Assembly (NCBI GenBank): GCA_030591795.1
Contig: JAUVAJ010000029.1
Coordinates: 1 to 10,151, forward strand
DNA length: 10,151 nt
Direction of reading: 5' to 3'
Source: Desulfuromonadales bacterium
GTDB lineage: Bacteria > Desulfobacterota > Desulfuromonadia > Desulfuromonadales > UBA2294
In this document: in pieces, positions 1,793 to 10,151 of the stretch
Numbering within the stretch: position 1 is the first letter of the stretch
Layout of the letters: every line of letters starts with the position of its first letter
Position numbers and translations under genes: made by a program
The notes under the pieces: model-generated
The model's input: only the letters and a program-made list of their open reading frames with translations
Databases searched by the model: none
What the model was told of the DNA's origin: nothing

Positions 1793-3592
1793 TCAGTTTT
1801 TATCACCAGCTGTTTTGCGAATACGAATAGCCAGTTCCGTCAATTGCTTCTCGTCGACGACTCCCGGGGCCTCAGACATCAGGCAAGAAGCTTTCTGGGT
1901 CTTCGGGAAGGCGATGACGTCGCGAATAGAATCGGAGTTGGTCAGTATCATCATAATGCGATCGAGGCCGAAGGCGAGGCCGCCATGTGGTGGCGCACCG
2001 AACTCGAGTGCATCAAGGAGGAAACCGAATTTTTGCCGGGCTTCTTCTTCTCCGATTCCGAGCAGGCGGAACATCTTGGACTGGATCGACTGGTCATGAA
2101 TACGGATCGAACCACCACCGATTTCTGTACCATTCAATACCAGATCGTAAGCATCGGAACGTACTTTGCCCGGATCGGAGTCGAGCAGTTCAATGTCCTC
2201 ATCGAGCGGTGCGGTGAACGGATGGTGGACAGCGACGTGGCGCTTAGCCTCTTCGTCCCACTCAAGCAGAGGGAATTTGGTGACCCAGATAAACTTGAAA
2301 TTATTCGGGTCGGTCAGGCCGAGTTTATGGCCGATGTGGCCACGGAGGCGACCTAGCGCCTCATTGGTGACTTTTGCCGTATCGGCAACGAACAGCAGCA
2401 GATCGCCCGGCTCTGCTTTGAGGGTAGTACCGATAGCTTCGAGTTCCGGTTCAGTGAAGAATTTGGCAATCGGCGACTGCCAGTTGCCATCTTCCTGAAT
2501 TTTGACCCAGGCGAGTCCTTTAGCTCCATAGATGCCGGCAAAATCGGTCAGGTCGTCAAGCACCTTGCGGGAGAAGTTTGATCCGCCTTTGACGTTGAGC
2601 GCCTTGACCAGACCGTCATTCTTCGCGACGCTGGCAAAGACCTTGAATCCACAACCTTTGACCAGATTGGTGATGTTGGTTAACTCCATTTCAAAGCGCA
2701 GGTCCGGGTTGTCAACACCATAACGATTCAGAACCTCGTCATAAGTCATGCGCGGCATCGGCAGTGAAAGCTCGATGTTGAGTGTCTCTTTGAAAATTTT
2801 AGCGATCATCCCTTCCATGATTGTCATGACATCATCGCTGTCGACGAAGGATAGCTCGCAGTCGATCTGGGTAAACTCAGGCTGACGGTCGGCACGCAGA
2901 TCTTCGTCGCGGAAACATTTAACGATCTGGAAGTAGCGGTCAAAGCCGGAGACCATCAATAACTGTTTAAACAATTGTGGTGACTGGGGCAGGGCAAAGA
3001 AGTTGCCTGGGTGGACTCGACTCGGTACCAGATAGTCGCGAGCACCTTCCGGGGTGCTCTTGGTCAAAACTGGTGTCTCGATTTCGAGGAAGCGATTTTC
3101 GGTCAGATAGTTACGAACTGTCTGAGCAACTTTGTGGCGCATCATCAGGTTCTTCTGAATCGATTCGCGACGCAGATCAAGGTATCGGTACTTCAGGCGC
3201 AGGTTCTCGGCGACTTCAGTAAATTCATTCAGCATGAACGGTGGTGTTTTGGCCTCGTTGAGAATGCGGAGTTCGCGGATCTCGATCTCGACTTCTCCGG
3301 TTGGCATCTTCGGATTGATCGTTCCGTCGGGGCGCGGCGAAACTTTACCGAGAGCGGCTATGACGAATTCGTTGCGGACATCTTCGGCCTTGGCGTGTGC
3401 TTGAGGGTCACGATCCGGGTCGAGTGCCAGTTGGACAATGCCGGTGCGGTCGCGCAGGTCGATAAAGATCAAGCCACCGTGGTCGCGGCGACGATGTGCC
3501 CAGCCCATTACACAGACTTCCTGGCCGATATGTTCGCTGCGCAGTTCCCCGCAGTAGTGGGTTCTTTTCCAGTTGCCGAGTATGTCGTTCAC
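1793..3592 (-). CDS. aspS: Aspartyl-tRNA synthetase, probably non-discriminating (Asp/Asn)
   Basis: This is a class II synthetase of bacterial type, 599 residues, close to the usual length. It has an N-terminal OB-fold anticodon domain (about 8-115), motif 2 as [18 protein letters not shown] at 227-244, a GAD insertion at about 305-410, and motif 3 with [10 protein letters not shown] at 541-550. The C-terminal block [16 protein letters not shown] is typical of the bacterial family. His38 (in RRRDHGG) and Gly90 (in RPDGTIN) line up with His31 and Gly83 of the Pseudomonas aeruginosa enzyme, residues linked to charging tRNA-Asn as well as tRNA-Asp. That implies a GatCAB amidotransferase elsewhere in the genome. 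The start is GTG with AAGGAG 5 nt upstream. The gene has its own promoter at 3662-3689 and shares a transcript with the downstream lipoprotein gene. Confidence 0.98.
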
Positions 3593-3697: not shown

Positions 3698-4963
3698 TCA
3701 GGCTGTTTCAACAGACTTGACAGTCGACATAATTGTGTCTGGATTGTTGATGTCTACTTCGGTCTGTTCGCCACCGGACATGTTGCGTAACGGAGCGACC
3801 TTATTTGCCAGCTCGTCTTCACCGAGAATCAGCGAATAACGGGCGCCCAATTTGTCTGCCCGGCGCATTTGTGATTTCAGGCTTTTGCCGGTGTAATCCA
3901 TTTCGGCCCGCAGGCCCTGACGCTGCAGAGTGGTCAACAGCGAAAATGCAAATTGTTGTGCTTCTTTACCGAGCGCGGCAATGAACAGATCCGGACAGGA
4001 GTTGGAGATCTCACGCTCAGACAGTAGCAAAACCAGACGCTCAACACCCATCGCAAAACCGATGCCCGGGGCTTCGGGGCCGCCGAGGTTGCGGATCAAA
4101 CCATCATAGCGGCCACCGGCAGCGACCGCATTTTGTGAACCGAGATTGTTGGTGATCATTTCAAAGGTGGTTTTAGTATAGTAATCCAGACCTCTAACCA
4201 TGCGCGGGTTGATGCTGAATTTGACATCGACCGCTTGCAGGTGATTGCGAACCTGACTGAAGTGATCGTCACAACCGGCGCAAAGATGCTCGAGAACCGT
4301 CGGAGCTTCCGTAGTTGCTTCTTTGCAACCCGGTACCTTGCAGTCCAGAACTCGTAGCGGGTTTTGCCGAAAGCGACGTTGACAATCACTGCAGAGCGAT
4401 TCGAGACGTTGTTCGAGAAAGTCGATCAGGACATCGCGGTAGCCGGGGCGACATTCCGGGCAACCTAATGAGTTGATCTCCAGGGTAACATCCGTAATCC
4501 CGACCTGTTTAAAGAAATGGTCGAGCATGGTCATGACCTGCGCATCAATCAATGGGTCATCGACACCGACAACCTCGGCCCCTATCTGGTGGAATTGGCG
4601 ATAACGGCCTTTTTGCGGGCGCTCATAGCGAAACATCGGCCCGGTATAGTAAAGTTTCTGGATCGGGCTATGATTGAGGAGCTTATGCTGGATCAGTGCG
4701 CGCATGACCGGCGCCGTCCCTTCCGGACGCAGGGTCAGAGAGTTGTCGCTACGGTCGGAAAAGGTGTACATCTCTTTTTCGACAATATCGGTGGTCTCGC
4801 CGATGGAGCGACTGAACAGCTCGGTTTTTTCGACAACCGGCACGCGGATTTCATCAAAGCCGAAAGCGTTGAAGATGCTGCGGGCAGTTGCCTCGACAAA
4901 TTGCCAGGTTGCAACTTCACTCGGCAGGATGTCATTCATCCCTTTGATTCCAGTAATGCTCAC
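3698..4963 (-). CDS. hisS: Histidyl-tRNA synthetase
   Basis: This class II synthetase charges tRNA-His with histidine in the cytoplasm. At 421 residues it is normal length. It begins with the conserved ITGIKGMNDILPSE. Motif 2 surrounds GPMFRYERPQKGRYRQFHQ (108-126). The histidine-specific motif is RGLDYYTKTTFE (257-268), and motif 3 includes GIGFAMGVERLVLL (300-313). The C-terminal anticodon domain covers about 325-415. The insertion domain carries eight cysteines: C168/C171, C191/C194, C208/C213 and C228/C231. This pattern occurs in many Gram-positive and deltaproteobacterial HisRS proteins but is absent from E. coli, and it may bind zinc. The start is GTG with an AAGGG site 7 nt upstream. 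It lies 61 nt after the cyclase gene with no terminator between, so read-through from the signalling genes is likely. Confidence 0.98.
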   Translation of the reverse strand: MSITGIKGMNDILPSEVATWQFVEATARSIFNAFGFDEIRVPVVEKTELFSRSIGETTDIVEKEMYTFSDRSDNSLTLRPEGTAPVMRALIQHKLLNHSPIQKLYYTGPMFRYERPQKGRYRQFHQIGAEVVGVDDPLIDAQVMTMLDHFFKQVGITDVTLEINSLGCPECRPGYRDVLIDFLEQRLESLCSDCQRRFRQNPLRVLDCKVPGCKEATTEAPTVLEHLCAGCDDHFSQVRNHLQAVDVKFSINPRMVRGLDYYTKTTFEMITNNLGSQNAVAAGGRYDGLIRNLGGPEAPGIGFAMGVERLVLLLSEREISNSCPDLFIAALGKEAQQFAFSLLTTLQRQGLRAEMDYTGKSLKSQMRRADKLGARYSLILGEDELANKVAPLRNMSGGEQTEVDINNPDTIMSTVKSVETA

Positions 4964-5024: not shown

Positions 5025-6422
5025 TCAGATTTCACGCATACTGTCAATGCGATAGACGCCTACCGGGATACGCTTCCCCTTTAAAGCCGTCGACTCAAGA
5101 TGGGTTGCCAGAACCGTGTCTTGCACTTGATTGTAGGTGGCTTCGGAGACCAGTACCTGGCCTGGTGCGGCGATCCCTTGCAACCTTGCCGCGATGTTGA
5201 CATTGTCACCGATGACCGTGTACTCCATCCGTTCGGCTGAGCCGATGTTGCCAGCAATGACCTTACCGGTGTTGATGCCGATCCCCATTTCCAGTACCGG
5301 CAGGTCTTGACCTTTTCGCTCACGATTAAACTGGATGACTTCCCTTTGCATGTCAACGGCGCATTTCACGGCATTAAGTGGATCATTCTCTGTAGCAAAC
5401 GGAACTCCGAACAGAGCCATGACTGAATCGCCCATAAGCTTGTCGACGATCCCGCCATTTTTGTTGACAACCGCAATCATGCGCGTGAAATATGTATTCA
5501 GAAGATCGACGACTTGTGCCGGTGGCAAGCGTTCTGCCAGCGTTGTGAAACGTCGGATATCGGAGAACAGAATAGTAACAGTAACCTCATCGCCACCCAG
5601 CTTTATTTCATCCTTACGTTTCAACAGGTTTTCTGCCAGCTCTTTACTTACATAGCGTTCGAAGGTGCTCTTGATAAACTCCTTCTCGCGCAGGTTAACG
5701 GCCATATCGTTAAAAGCGTCGGCCAATACGGCAAATTCATCTTTGCGCTTGAGCTTGATATTCTGATTGAAGTCGCCGGCACCGATGGCGCGGACGCCTT
5801 TTACCAACACCCGAAACGGGCGCATGGACACGCCGGCCAGCAGGTAAGCGATGATGACTCCGGGGAGCAGGGTTGCCAGGGAAATCAGCGCCAGGAGATT
5901 GCGCATATTGGCAATTTCCTGGGCAATCATGGTTTCAGAAAGGCCGAGATGGATCGCGCCGAGACGGAGCGGTGTGTCAGCGACCGTCATGATTGGCACT
6001 TCGAGGTCGAGCACTGTTTCAGCGCCTGACTCGAAGCGACGTACCTGATAGCCTGGTTGGGTTTCGACCGCGACAGAGTTGTTCAGTTCGAAGCTCTGGC
6101 CAACAAGATTAATGTCTTCTGCGGCGCGGATTTGTTGCTGATTGTCAACGATAAATGCATACCGGATACCGGGCGACCGGGTGGCGTTTTTGATAGCAGA
6201 GAACAGATAGATGTCATCACCGGTCAGAAGTGGATCCTCGGCATTAAACGCCACGCCACGGGCAACGCCCATCCCTTTTTCGATGCTCTCACGGATCAGG
6301 GTCTGGCGGAAACTGTTTTCCAGAAAGATAAGTACCGACAGGGTCAACAACCCGCCGAACAGGGCAATAGTGAGGGCAAACTTGAAACGGAGGCTGGCAA
6401 AAAAGCTGATTTTTTTAGCCAC
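5025..6422 (-). CDS. Membrane-bound class III adenylate cyclase with extracytoplasmic sensor and HAMP domain
   Basis: This 465-residue protein probably makes cAMP from ATP. Order of domains: TM1 at about 14-34; an extracytoplasmic sensor region at about 35-175, perhaps of dCache/PAS-like type; TM2 at about 177-199; HAMP at about 200-250; a short linker; and a class III cyclase domain at about 278-460. Metal-binding Asp288 (FSDIR) and Asp332 (MGDSVM) are present. Purine-recognition Lys328 and Thr402 (EYTVIGD) form the Lys-Thr pair of class IIIb adenylate cyclases. Transition-state Asn409 and Arg413 (VNIAARL) are also intact, so the enzyme should be active. I chose GTG at 6422 because AGGGAG lies 7 nt upstream and the start overlaps the TPR stop by 8 nt. 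An ATG at 6467 would add 15 polar residues and overlap by 53 nt. Guanylate cyclase activity is unlikely given the Lys-Thr pair. Confidence 0.92.
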   Translation of the reverse strand: MAKKISFFASLRFKFALTIALFGGLLTLSVLIFLENSFRQTLIRESIEKGMGVARGVAFNAEDPLLTGDDIYLFSAIKNATRSPGIRYAFIVDNQQQIRAAEDINLVGQSFELNNSVAVETQPGYQVRRFESGAETVLDLEVPIMTVADTPLRLGAIHLGLSETMIAQEIANMRNLLALISLATLLPGVIIAYLLAGVSMRPFRVLVKGVRAIGAGDFNQNIKLKRKDEFAVLADAFNDMAVNLREKEFIKSTFERYVSKELAENLLKRKDEIKLGGDEVTVTILFSDIRRFTTLAERLPPAQVVDLLNTYFTRMIAVVNKNGGIVDKLMGDSVMALFGVPFATENDPLNAVKCAVDMQREVIQFNRERKGQDLPVLEMGIGINTGKVIAGNIGSAERMEYTVIGDNVNIAARLQGIAAPGQVLVSEATYNQVQDTVLATHLESTALKGKRIPVGVYRIDSMREI

Positions 6423-8886
6423 TCTGGAACTCCCTGATGCTCTGTAGTTTACGTTTTGCTTTCTCAATATTCATTCTGGCTTTTTTGTGCTCCGGCGCAA
6501 GTTGCAACACCTTTTCCCAGGTTTGAATCGCATCTGAGTATTTACCCTGGGTGTAAAGTTCGATCCCTTGCAGGTAGAGTCTGTTTTCATCACCGGGGCG
6601 GACGCCGGTTTGTTCGAGACTGGCAATTTTGTTTATGGCAGCTTTGGCCTCTGCCTGATAGGGATCGAGCACTAATACTTTATTGTAAGCGTCTGCGGCT
6701 GTCCCGAGATCAGCTTGGGCAAAGGCGGTGCGTCCTGCCTGCAAATGCCCGGCAAGTTCAGTTTTGATTTGTTTGCGCCCTGCCTGCAAGCCTTGCAGCG
6801 CCTCTTTGTTGGTCGGCTCAAGCTCAAGCGCCTGCCGATAGAACACCAGCGCGTCCTGATGCTGCCCAGCTGCGGCCATTTTGCTGGCACTTGCCAATCG
6901 TGAACTCAGGGCTGCGGCAATTTCCGCATTGAGTGCATATAGTTCAGCTGCCGCTGGATGTTGCGGGTTGGCACTTAAAATGCGCTGGTAAACAGTACGG
7001 GCTGTTTTGTAGTCTTTTTTCTTGCGGGCAGTTCGGGCCGCGGTCAGCAACTCTTCTGCATGAGTGTTGCGGGCTTGTCTGATTGATTTGAGCTCACGCC
7101 TGGTCTCCGGGGTGTCGCTCAATTTGAGAGCGTTGTTGAAATGCGTCTCAGCTCGATCCAGATTGCCGGCGCTGCGAGCTTGTCTGCCGAATTGTAGTTC
7201 CTGCGATACAATGGAAGCTACCAGCGCATCGAGACGAGTGCGACCTTCGATCGCTGCAGGGAAATCGGGCACAAGCTGCTCAGCCTGGGTGAAATGTTTG
7301 TCGGCTGTTTTAAGCTTGCCTTCATCGAGGGCGTTATTCCCTTTGGCCGTTTCTGCAAGCGCTGCTGTCTGGCGATGCTGTGCACTTTGTGTCAGCCCGA
7401 TTAGGGCTTTTTTGTTTGCCGGGTCGATCTGGAGCACCTTATTGAATTGAGCTTCAGCGGCTGAAAAGTCGGATCGCTGTAACAGGGCAAATCCATTTTC
7501 CAGCAGATTGCTGACATCCATAGCCAAAGCTTGCAGCGCTTCACGTCTGAGGCGTAGACCTCCGGCATCGTTCGGGGCCAAGACCAGTCCACTGTTTGCC
7601 AGGATAACTGCTTGCAGGTAATCTTTGTCATTGATGGCTTTACGGCCATTTTTGAATTGAACCGCTGCTTCTGACTCTATGTGCTTGATGGTCTTTTTTT
7701 TGTAGCCGGTGCTTCGGTGCTCATCCGGTTGGATGGCCAAAACCTCATCGAAACGAGTCAGCGCTTCAATATACTGACCACCTTTATACGAAGTAAGGCC
7801 AGCCTGAAAGATTTCTTCGACCGCTTTTTCTTCGGCGACGGCGAGATTGATGGTGGCCTGTGAATGTGTCGGGTCGTTTTTCAGGACACGGCTGAACATC
7901 TCCCTGGCGGTCAGGAATTCCTGCCGCTGAAGATAAACGGTTCCGGATAACATTAGATCCTTATCCCGGGCATTTTGCGGCTGGATCAAGGGCTTTATGC
8001 CGGCAACGGCCTGGTCCAGTTTCTGGGCATCGATTGAACGGAGCACACTGTTGTAGAGCATCGATCGTGTGCTTTCTTGTAACTCATCAGGGATGGTCGG
8101 ATATACCGGCGTAAGGTGGCGAATGGTCGATTCTGTGTCGCCGGAATTGTAAGCGAGAGAGCCGAGGTAGTAACTGACCAGTGGGCTTTCCGGAGCCACG
8201 GTGCGAGCGGCTTCGAAAGAGGCCTGCGCAGCTTTGTTGTCGCCACTTTCCATCTGCTTAAGCGCCCGGTTAAAGTGCAGGGCATACAGGTATTCACGAG
8301 CGGGCTGATCGTCCGGGTAGTGCTCAAGATAGGTTGAAAACAGTTTGATGGCTTCTTGGCTGCGGCCGCTTCGAGCGGCAATATCACCGAGTAGACGATA
8401 GATCTCCACCCGATCCGGGTCGAGTGCCAGTACCCTTTTAAATACCTCGGCGGCTTCATTCAGGGCTTCCTGCTCCAGATAGATCAGCCCCACATTATAG
8501 TAGGCGTTTACCAGTGGAAACAGTTCTGCTGCTTTCAGCGCACCGAGAGCTTCAGCCTGTTCGAGGTAGAGCAGAGCGCTGTCTGCATCGCCTGCTTGCG
8601 AATACGCCAGGCCGATATTGTAATGCATTTCAATCGAATCAGTATAGGCCGGGTAGGCAGTTCGGAACGATGCAATCGCCTCATCAGTATGTCCGCTTTT
8701 CAGTTGAGCCAGACCGAGAATGTAGTGCAGGGTCGGGTTGTCAGGGTCGACCTGGAGCGCTTGCTGGTAACGGTCAATTGCTGAAGTGTTGTTAGTTTCA
8801 ATTGTAATAGCAGGCGTGACAAAAAGCGTACAAGATAGAAAGACGATAAGAAAGGATTGGGCTAAAAGTTTAAGCAATATTGACAT
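6415..8886 (-). CDS. Large exported TPR-repeat protein
   Basis: This 823-residue protein consists almost only of tetratricopeptide-type helical repeats. A hydrophobic N-terminus (residues 3-27, MSILLKLLAQSFLIVFLSC...) looks like a signal peptide or anchor, so the repeats probably lie outside the cytoplasm. Cys19 sits in the hydrophobic stretch without a proper lipobox. Residues 36-350 hold ordinary 34-residue TPRs with the usual A..YY.LG.....G pattern and DPD/APES ends. Residues 360-823 instead form about nine units of 48-55 residues, each a TPR pair plus an extra charged helix, ending in YTQGKYSDAIQTWEKVLQL. No catalytic motif is seen; a scaffold or sensor-partner role is inferred. The ATG at 8886 overlaps the TGA of the GGDEF gene by one base (TGATG), so translation is coupled; a GGAG lies 13 nt upstream. 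A TTG at 8913 would add nine unlikely residues. The end overlaps the cyclase start. Confidence 0.9.
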   Translation of the reverse strand: MSILLKLLAQSFLIVFLSCTLFVTPAITIETNNTSAIDRYQQALQVDPDNPTLHYILGLAQLKSGHTDEAIASFRTAYPAYTDSIEMHYNIGLAYSQAGDADSALLYLEQAEALGALKAAELFPLVNAYYNVGLIYLEQEALNEAAEVFKRVLALDPDRVEIYRLLGDIAARSGRSQEAIKLFSTYLEHYPDDQPAREYLYALHFNRALKQMESGDNKAAQASFEAARTVAPESPLVSYYLGSLAYNSGDTESTIRHLTPVYPTIPDELQESTRSMLYNSVLRSIDAQKLDQAVAGIKPLIQPQNARDKDLMLSGTVYLQRQEFLTAREMFSRVLKNDPTHSQATINLAVAEEKAVEEIFQAGLTSYKGGQYIEALTRFDEVLAIQPDEHRSTGYKKKTIKHIESEAAVQFKNGRKAINDKDYLQAVILANSGLVLAPNDAGGLRLRREALQALAMDVSNLLENGFALLQRSDFSAAEAQFNKVLQIDPANKKALIGLTQSAQHRQTAALAETAKGNNALDEGKLKTADKHFTQAEQLVPDFPAAIEGRTRLDALVASIVSQELQFGRQARSAGNLDRAETHFNNALKLSDTPETRRELKSIRQARNTHAEELLTAARTARKKKDYKTARTVYQRILSANPQHPAAAELYALNAEIAAALSSRLASASKMAAAGQHQDALVFYRQALELEPTNKEALQGLQAGRKQIKTELAGHLQAGRTAFAQADLGTAADAYNKVLVLDPYQAEAKAAINKIASLEQTGVRPGDENRLYLQGIELYTQGKYSDAIQTWEKVLQLAPEHKKARMNIEKAKRKLQSIREFQSG
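6430..6435 (-). promoter_or_regulatory. Ribosome binding site deciding the cyclase GTG start
   Basis: AGGGAG on the minus strand lies 7 nt before the GTG at 6422, inside the last codons of the TPR gene. It supports the shorter cyclase start over the ATG at 6467. Confidence 0.65.
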
Positions 8887-10151
8887 CAGTCGGCATTTTC
8901 TCCAGCAGCACAACTGGTGTTGCGATTTTTTTTGCCATGGAACATTGCCTGGTCGGCCATGTCGATCAGGCTGAACTTGTTGTCAGCATGGTCCGGATAG
9001 GTGGCAAAGCCGATTGTTGTCGTGACTTTGGCATTGATCCCCTCCTCTTTGAGGAAGACTGTCTGTTCTACGGCAGTACGCATCCGTTCGGCAACAACTC
9101 TGGCGCCCTCAAGGTCGGTTTCGACCAACAGTGCGGTAAATTCGTCACCACCATAACGGAATAGAGTGTCGACTTCGCGGACACTCTCCATCAGAATCTG
9201 CGCAACTTCGGATAGCGCCTTGCTGCCAGCCAGATGACCATGGGTGTCGTTGATATTTTTGAAATAATCCAGATCGAGAAAAATCAGTGAGAATTTCAAC
9301 CCATAGCGTGAAGAACGACTGATCTCTTTCTCAATAGCGAGATGCAGATAACGGTGGTTAAACAGGCCGCTCAGATCATCGGTGTACATTAGCTCCCGGG
9401 CATCGGTGAACCGGAAAGCATTTTCGAAGCCGAGATTGATCTGGTCAGCCAGAAATGAAAGGTGCTCAGAGTACGGATCCTCGGGAAATGCGCCGGCCGC
9501 CGGATTAAACAAGATCAGGCCACCTTTTGTCGAGCCCTGGCATTTAAGAGGCAGTATACCGATGGTCTCAACCGCTTCTGGCCAGCCGTCTTTAGCAGAC
9601 CAGGCTTTTTTGTCTGTAAAATAAAAACCGGTTTCACCTTCACTTATATTTGAGAGATCCCGGGCCATTGCCTGGGCTTGATCTTCTTCCAGTCCGAAGA
9701 TCGACTTCAGAACTGGTCGTTCTTTTTTATCGAAAACAAAAGCGATACCGCGACCATCGCCGAACAGTTGCAAGAGTGAATTGATCGATTGTGGCAAGAG
9801 TCGATCCAGGTCAATCAAAGAAGCGAGGATCTGTCCCCGTTGAAAAAGCTGGATCTGGGTTTTGAGCAGATAGTTCTCATTCAGAAGGCGACGCTGCTCA
9901 ACACAGGTATGTAGAAGGTGTAAGAGCTCATCCGGGTCGAACGGTTTGGTCAGGTAGTCGCGGGCGCCATCTTTCAGAGCCTGGATGGCACTTTCGGTTG
10001 AGGCATGACCGGTCACCAGAATAACGTCAGGCGGGTTGCTTTGTGCCTTGGCAACGCGCAGGACTTCAAGGCCGTCGACGTCCGGCATGACCATATCGGT
10101 TAAGACGACATCGATGCCACCCTGCTTAATACGTTTAATCGCAGCTTCGCC
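8886..10151 (-). CDS. Response regulator with GAF-like and GGDEF domains; predicted Hypr (cGAMP) synthase (5' end outside window)
   Basis: The visible 421 residues lack only the first part of the receiver domain. The receiver shows the phospho-acceptor Asp19 (LTDMVMPDVDG), the Thr of ILVTGHAS and the Lys of YLTKPFD. A coiled segment and a GAF-like domain (fragment residues about 110-250) follow. The GGDEF domain covers about 255-405, with LDLDYFKNINDTHGH, an intact RYGGDEF and an REVD inhibitory site five residues before it. At the guanine-contacting position where canonical enzymes have GD (PleD Asp344), this protein has Gly-Ser (GHLAGSKAL, Ser at 9222-9224). That Ser marks hybrid promiscuous GGDEFs such as Geobacter GacA (GSU1658, from memory), which make 3',3'-cGAMP. 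Otherwise it is a c-di-GMP synthase. Phosphorylation of the receiver probably activates it. It overlaps the TPR gene by one base and leads the signalling cluster in this window. Confidence 0.93.
   Translation of the reverse strand, partial: GEAAIKRIKQGGIDVVLTDMVMPDVDGLEVLRVAKAQSNPPDVILVTGHASTESAIQALKDGARDYLTKPFDPDELLHLLHTCVEQRRLLNENYLLKTQIQLFQRGQILASLIDLDRLLPQSINSLLQLFGDGRGIAFVFDKKERPVLKSIFGLEEDQAQAMARDLSNISEGETGFYFTDKKAWSAKDGWPEAVETIGILPLKCQGSTKGGLILFNPAAGAFPEDPYSEHLSFLADQINLGFENAFRFTDARELMYTDDLSGLFNHRYLHLAIEKEISRSSRYGLKFSLIFLDLDYFKNINDTHGHLAGSKALSEVAQILMESVREVDTLFRYGGDEFTALLVETDLEGARVVAERMRTAVEQTVFLKEEGINAKVTTTIGFATYPDHADNKFSLIDMADQAMFHGKKNRNTSCAAGENAD

Follow-up and report, generated by a model that had tools for sequence, protein, structure and literature searches.

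Known enzymes of the Hypr kind, which belong to the GGDEF proteins, are promiscuous in the products that they make, as described in the available portions of PMC6456294 and PMC9140294. According to the former, the Ser at position 348 of these enzymes (numbering of Geobacter GacA) requires a GGDEF rather than a GGEEF motif, and the residue at the cross-dimer position 304 accompanies the choice of product: Arg occupies it in 94% of predicted diguanylate cyclases and shifts GacA toward cyclic di-GMP (c-di-GMP), and Tyr, Ser, Ala and Gln accompany 3',3'-cyclic GMP-AMP (cGAMP). The Bdellovibrio enzyme Bd0367 has Met at this position, as reported in the accessible part of PMC9140294. Here we analyze a stretch of 10,151 nucleotides from a Desulfuromonadales bacterium (contig JAUVAJ010000029.1; hereinafter the window), at one edge of which lies a gene for a receiver-linked GGDEF protein. 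On the strength of its sequence, its place in the tree and its neighbouring genes, we regard this gene as very probably the orthologue of Geobacter gacA, coding for a response-regulator Hypr GGDEF enzyme predicted to make mainly cGAMP, with c-di-GMP as a side product. An earlier note on this DNA had proposed cGAMP rather than c-di-GMP; since the known Hypr enzymes are promiscuous, mainly cGAMP with some c-di-GMP is the safer wording. The gene and its signature positions are as follows:

8886..10151, minus strand: gacA-like gene for a receiver-GGDEF protein, from its open reading frame (ORF), Pfam and a structural model; the N-terminus lies beyond the window edge
9219..9248, minus strand: NDTHGHLAGS stretch containing Asn301 and the signature Ser310; coordinates calculated from the end of the ORF, residues placed by alignment and homologue survey
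9141..9155, minus strand: GGDEF motif, residues 334-338, from the ORF; the D form that the 'Goldilocks' model requires alongside Ser (PMC6456294, available portion)
9354..9356, minus strand: His266, the cross-dimer position, from alignment to Geobacter metallireducens GacA (GmGacA) and the homologue survey

The motif strings INDTHGHLAGSKAL and REVDTLFRYGGDEF are both present in the ORF translation. In the alignment to GmGacA (PDB 6d9m), S310 of the window protein corresponds to Ser348 and to Asp344 of PleD, so that the Asp is absent from the guanine-reading position, as the earlier note had stated; N301 corresponds to Asn339 and D336 of the GGDEF motif to Asp374, and the RxxD site is R325/D328, all three of them intact as that note had also held. 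H266 takes the place of the cross-dimer Tyr304. Hypr enzymes of the GacA type have Ser or Thr for the guanine-reading Asp (GacA 347/348, PleD 344) and a motif of the form GGDE[F/Y]. The protein accordingly combines the sequence features of a Hypr enzyme, namely Ser at the guanine-reading position, GGDEF and not GGEEF, and a residue other than Arg at 304. The GGDEF motif, the Asn and the catalytic Glu are, moreover, invariant across 47 aligned homologues, and their integrity leaves almost no credence for a catalytically dead or degenerate GGDEF domain that serves as a receptor: the RxxD site could bind a dinucleotide, and we found nothing else in favour of such a role.

The open frame at 8886-10151 on the minus strand encodes 421 amino acids, and its 5' end runs past the window edge; as a homologue that is 95% identical (P0001) has 456 amino acids, approximately 35 N-terminal residues are missing. 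Response_reg (residues 1-80, aligned from position 31 of the Pfam model onward) and GGDEF (residues 256-410) are the only Pfam models that match the protein, which agrees with the GacA-like, receiver-linked architecture proposed for it before. An AlphaFold model built from 47 sequences (mean predicted local distance difference test 86.3, predicted template-modelling score 0.48) contains an additional alpha/beta domain between the two, at about residues 115-250, and a long helix that runs into the GGDEF domain. We take the middle domain as GAF-like, because one of 120 homologues (P0107) has a precomputed match to the GAF model PF13185 and the PDB name of 6d9m says GAF; in Pfam, no GAF model matches the window protein itself. 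The best PDB sequence match is GmGacA, 6d9m (expectation value (E) 6.9e-52), with PleD weaker (E 1.1e-36), and Foldseek, ranked by E-value, places 5llw first and GmGacA second.

The possibility next to be considered is that the protein is a canonical diguanylate cyclase in which the Ser is a harmless variant. Database models do name it so: TIGR00254, 'diguanylate cyclase', gives a score of 149.7 (cut-off 37.4), homologues that carry a name are labelled either diguanylate cyclase or two-component response regulator, and no cGAMP-named model occurs among the best 25 of the 106 NCBIfam models matched, all of which bears out the expectation in the earlier note that automatic annotation would choose this label. 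Further, a Ser substitution in the canonical GSU3350 leaves it a pure diguanylate cyclase, according to the available portion of PMC6456294. Nevertheless, we consider this explanation very improbable, as position 304 bears a residue other than Arg and the window domain groups with GmGacA even when the signature columns are removed. The tree in question comprised 149 GGDEF domains (the window, GmGacA, PleD, L001-L079, L110-L139, one third of L140-L169 and one fifth of P0001-P0120), with GmGacA as the sole proven Hypr enzyme and PleD as the canonical reference. In it one branch separates the Ser rows from the Asp rows with support of 100/95 (the bootstrap had not settled, correlation 0.917), and the window, GmGacA and 40 others form a 42-row branch with support of 99/82. 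The split persists without columns 304, 348 and GG[D/E]EF (Shimodaira-Hasegawa-like approximate likelihood-ratio test 95, by a quick method). Thus, the grouping with the Hypr enzyme and apart from canonical ones, which the earlier note had proposed as a check, is recovered with or without the signature columns.

The signature is also well conserved. Our search retrieved 3289 homologues, and among the 120 best of them Ser, GGDEF and RxxD are present in all 120 and the Asn in 119, with position 304 being His in 57, Tyr in 45, Gln in 16, and Leu and Met in one each. As a control, we fetched 30 of 76 GGDEF matches from genomes G001, G004, G005 and G007: Asp is found in 28 of the 30, and the remaining two, both Ser-bearing, are the gacA genes themselves. 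Retention of Ser in 120/120 nearest homologues versus Asp in 28/30 control domains indicates that the Ser signature is not due to chance. Ser, Asn and GGDEF are likewise present in L001-L019 of the 79 loci collected, with His at 304 in L001-L005 and Ile in L006 and L007. Twelve of these loci, L008-L019, are from Nitrospirota; their Ser348 GGDEF proteins (at about 10001-11200 in most) have Thr (8), Ser (3) or Gln (1) at 304 and cluster apart from the Desulfuromonadales ones in the tree. A protein from a Thermoanaerobaculum metagenome-assembled genome (MAG), L070:9509-10588, plus strand, combines Ser348 and GGDEF with Arg at 304 and falls on the Ser side of the tree. L003 lies on a contig assigned to a Chloroflexi MAG that is probably mis-binned; its gacA-hisS-aspS run resembles those of the Desulfuromonadaceae loci L001 and L002.

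We then consider the receptors. For GEMM-I riboswitches we take the ligand to be read at position 20 (Vc2 numbering), with G denoting c-di-GMP and A denoting cGAMP. A G20A mutant of a GEMM-I aptamer binds cGAMP, as given in the available portion of PMC6274999. Rfam models have no match within the window. In the three nearest genomes, RF01051 matches 14 times (G004), 26 times (G136; 24 above the cut-off) and 16 times (G137), versus none in 14 control genomes. Model alignments, read for the G004 aptamers other than L109, place A20 in four of them, L080, L103, L104 and L107 (the last by eye), and an A20 pattern combined with a hairpin test identifies 10 of 11 matches in G136 and all six in G137. 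The cGAMP-type riboswitches that the earlier note linked to such an enzyme are therefore present in these three genomes, which are relatives and not the window's own genome. A tetrahaem cytochrome directly follows the A20 riboswitch L201, a phosphate-type binding protein follows L080, and family 2 glycosyltransferases follow L104 (G004) and L216 (G136). Other genes after riboswitches code for FG-GAP, DUF11 and TPR (tetratricopeptide repeat) proteins, two response regulators (L204, L211), an oxidoreductase (L214) and a number of proteins without a family; as the first ORF was chosen by length, some of these assignments may be wrong. L080, L087, L093 and L096 are claimed by the Rfam families c-di-GMP-I-UAU or -GGC, with the pocket letters A20/A47 in L080 and G20/A47 in the others, so that the Rfam name is no guide to the ligand here. 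In the G004 aptamers L098, L102 and L105 the position matching C92 is, by eye, apparently not C.

Across 136 genomes of the order, with a match better than 1e-70 to the window protein defining a gacA-bearing genome, 118 have gacA and 18 do not. The A20 pattern alone is found in 77 genomes, 72 of the 118 with gacA and five of the 18 without it; the reversed-pattern control gives 11 matches in 10 genomes, and the G20 pattern matches 99 of the 136. Hairpin-checked A20 riboswitches occur in at least 61 of the 118 versus two of the 18 (Fisher p 0.0016, a value that ignores kinship, the gacA-less genomes mostly seeming to be one group). Aptamers with the first P2 pair flipped to C-G escape the first A20 pattern; a second one adds a few, real by eye in G018, G023, G054, G117 and G118, and the overall picture is unchanged. 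The matches of the second pattern in the gacA-less G035, G045 and G046 were rejected, since by eye they have no such hairpin. In G021, one of the two gacA-less genomes with A20, the hisS region is missing from the assembly; this genome encodes a different Ser348 GGDEF protein (L273:1486-2559, minus strand) with Gly at 304, distinct from the hisS-linked gacA. Two weak partial domains, L281 and L283, likewise show Ser, at a position that aligns poorly. Among 10 gacA-less genomes examined, hisS is preceded in seven by an ORF unrelated to the window proteins, which by eye reads as ComEC-like.

Several of these observations weigh against a mainly cGAMP-making enzyme serving these riboswitches. Besides the kinship that the Fisher test ignores, the count of 61 of 118, albeit a lower bound, leaves 57 gacA-bearing genomes without a hairpin-checked A20 match, including G001, G002, G003 and G005, and the check for Ser348 covered 30 of the 118. 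Conversely, in G099 a single A20 riboswitch stands without any gacA match, and the 18 of its 31 GGDEF matches examined include no Ser348. His at 304, too, falls outside the set of residues (Tyr, Ser, Ala and Gln; Arg; Met) described in the available portions of PMC6456294 and PMC9140294. As to the genomes just named, G001 has a single odd A20-like aptamer, L081, and G001, G002, G003 and G005 contain GEMM-I aptamers with G20 and the first P2 pair flipped to C-G (L083, L084, L085, L088, L090, L091, L092, L094 and L097), with no standard A20 aptamer.

The His at the Tyr304 position, a point absent from the earlier note, bears on the product ratio, and raises the possibility of a Hypr-type enzyme whose main product, in this lineage, is c-di-GMP, the cross-dimer His acting like the charged, guanine-favouring Arg and not like Tyr. 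That position 304 tunes the ratio is clear from the accessible part of PMC6456294, wherein Tyr304Arg moves the output of GacA to c-di-GMP and two Hypr enzymes with Arg produce more c-di-GMP; His also occurs at 304 in certain Asp348 enzymes (L023, L028, L029, L068, L124 and L125). We nonetheless think this unlikely, as the nearest genomes with a His304 gacA (that of G004 being 77% identical) have cGAMP-type riboswitches, and Ser is retained in all 57 His-bearing proteins of the best 120 homologues.

If the enzyme indeed makes mainly cGAMP, receiver phosphorylation would be expected to bring two GGDEF domains face to face. With Ser in place of the guanine-reading Asp, and with the metal held by GGDEF instead of GGEEF, each half-site would take either ATP or GTP; the dimer would then make mainly 3',3'-cGAMP, with c-di-GMP and perhaps cyclic di-AMP as by-products. 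In the relatives, cGAMP is likely to be read by the GEMM-I riboswitches with A20 that lie ahead of genes for surface and envelope proteins.

The genes that follow gacA in the window are:

6415..8886, minus strand: TPR-repeat protein with an N-terminal hydrophobic stretch, from its ORF and Pfam TPR models
5025..6422, minus strand: membrane class III cyclase with sCache_3_2, HAMP and Guanylate_cyc domains, from Pfam, catalytic residues and PDB matches
3698..4963, minus strand: presumed hisS, the next gene downstream and a conserved gacA neighbour, from synteny
1793..3592, minus strand: presumed aspS, after hisS and likewise a conserved neighbour, from synteny

The names hisS and aspS are presumptive, being read from the sequences themselves. 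The ATG of the TPR gene and the stop codon of gacA have one base in common (TGATG), and the cyclase starts at a GTG within the last bases of the TPR gene, giving an overlap of eight bases. The best PDB matches of the cyclase are bacterial adenylate cyclases, and the window protein, like all 12 linked relatives examined, has two metal-binding Asp, the adenine-contacting Lys and Asp, and the transition-state Asn and Arg. It is thus probably an adenylate cyclase, predicted to make cyclic AMP (cAMP), and, given its sCache and HAMP domains, probably a membrane sensor.

In all seven of L001-L007 hisS directly follows gacA, and the TPR and cyclase genes might have been taken as an insertion specific to the window; wider sampling of relatives ruled this out. 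Of the top 30 loci from the search of 136 genomes, 16 have the TPR gene next to gacA and 14 have hisS there. Among 16 longer stretches chosen (13 with the TPR gene, three without), 12 have the order gacA-TPR-class III cyclase-hisS, one lacks the cyclase and three lack both genes. A close cyclase (E <= 1e-100) is encoded in 22 of the 136 genomes; in 17 of these it shares a contig with gacA, at a distance of up to about 5 kb, and in five it is on a different contig; in one of the 22, G128, a TGA interrupts the match. In search listings of the open-licence literature we found no statement linking gacA to an adenylate cyclase, nor one on cGAMP riboswitches in Desulfuromonas; PMC7157779, which names an adenylate cyclase in Geobacter, concerns an unrelated transporter, judging by its available portion.

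A speculative reading, to which we give less than even odds, is that gacA forms one translationally coupled signalling unit with the genes for the TPR protein and the class III adenylate cyclase, setting cAMP and cGAMP output together, with the His304 branch as a separate tuning of the cGAMP to c-di-GMP ratio. The membrane sensor cyclase would make cAMP while GacA makes cGAMP, under shared control. An operon of this kind, if functional, would link the regulation of envelope and electron-transfer genes by cGAMP to another messenger derived from ATP. As the Hypr GGDEF family has been known since 2016, the novelty of the assignment itself is modest. It does correct a database label that would place the enzyme in the wrong pathway, and it shows the Ser signature to be retained across many Desulfuromonadales-like proteins and also in Nitrospirota. 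The parts most worth following, both of which go beyond the earlier note, are the adenylate cyclase coupled to gacA and the His branch, the latter of which provides a natural series (His, Tyr and Gln) for measuring what sets the product ratio.

Among known systems, GacA (GSU1658 of Geobacter sulfurreducens; Gmet_1914 of G. metallireducens, the protein in 6d9m) is the closest, with the same receiver-linked GGDEF domain, Ser348, Asn339, GGDEF, RxxD site and tree branch, but with Tyr where the window protein has His; in the window the TPR and class III cyclase genes follow gacA. The Hypr GGDEF protein Bd0367 of Bdellovibrio bacteriovorus, likened to the window protein by its published description, shares the Ser at the selectivity position and makes cGAMP, but differs in its cross-dimer Met (PMC9140294, available portion). 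PleD, a canonical receiver-GGDEF diguanylate cyclase, has the same receiver and GGDEF domains and general fold, yet differs in Asp344, GGEEF and Arg at the cross-dimer position, and matches the window protein less well. Finally, the cGAMP synthases of the DncV and cGAS type have an enzyme fold unrelated to that of GGDEF proteins and, if the cGAMP prediction is right, would share with the window protein their product.

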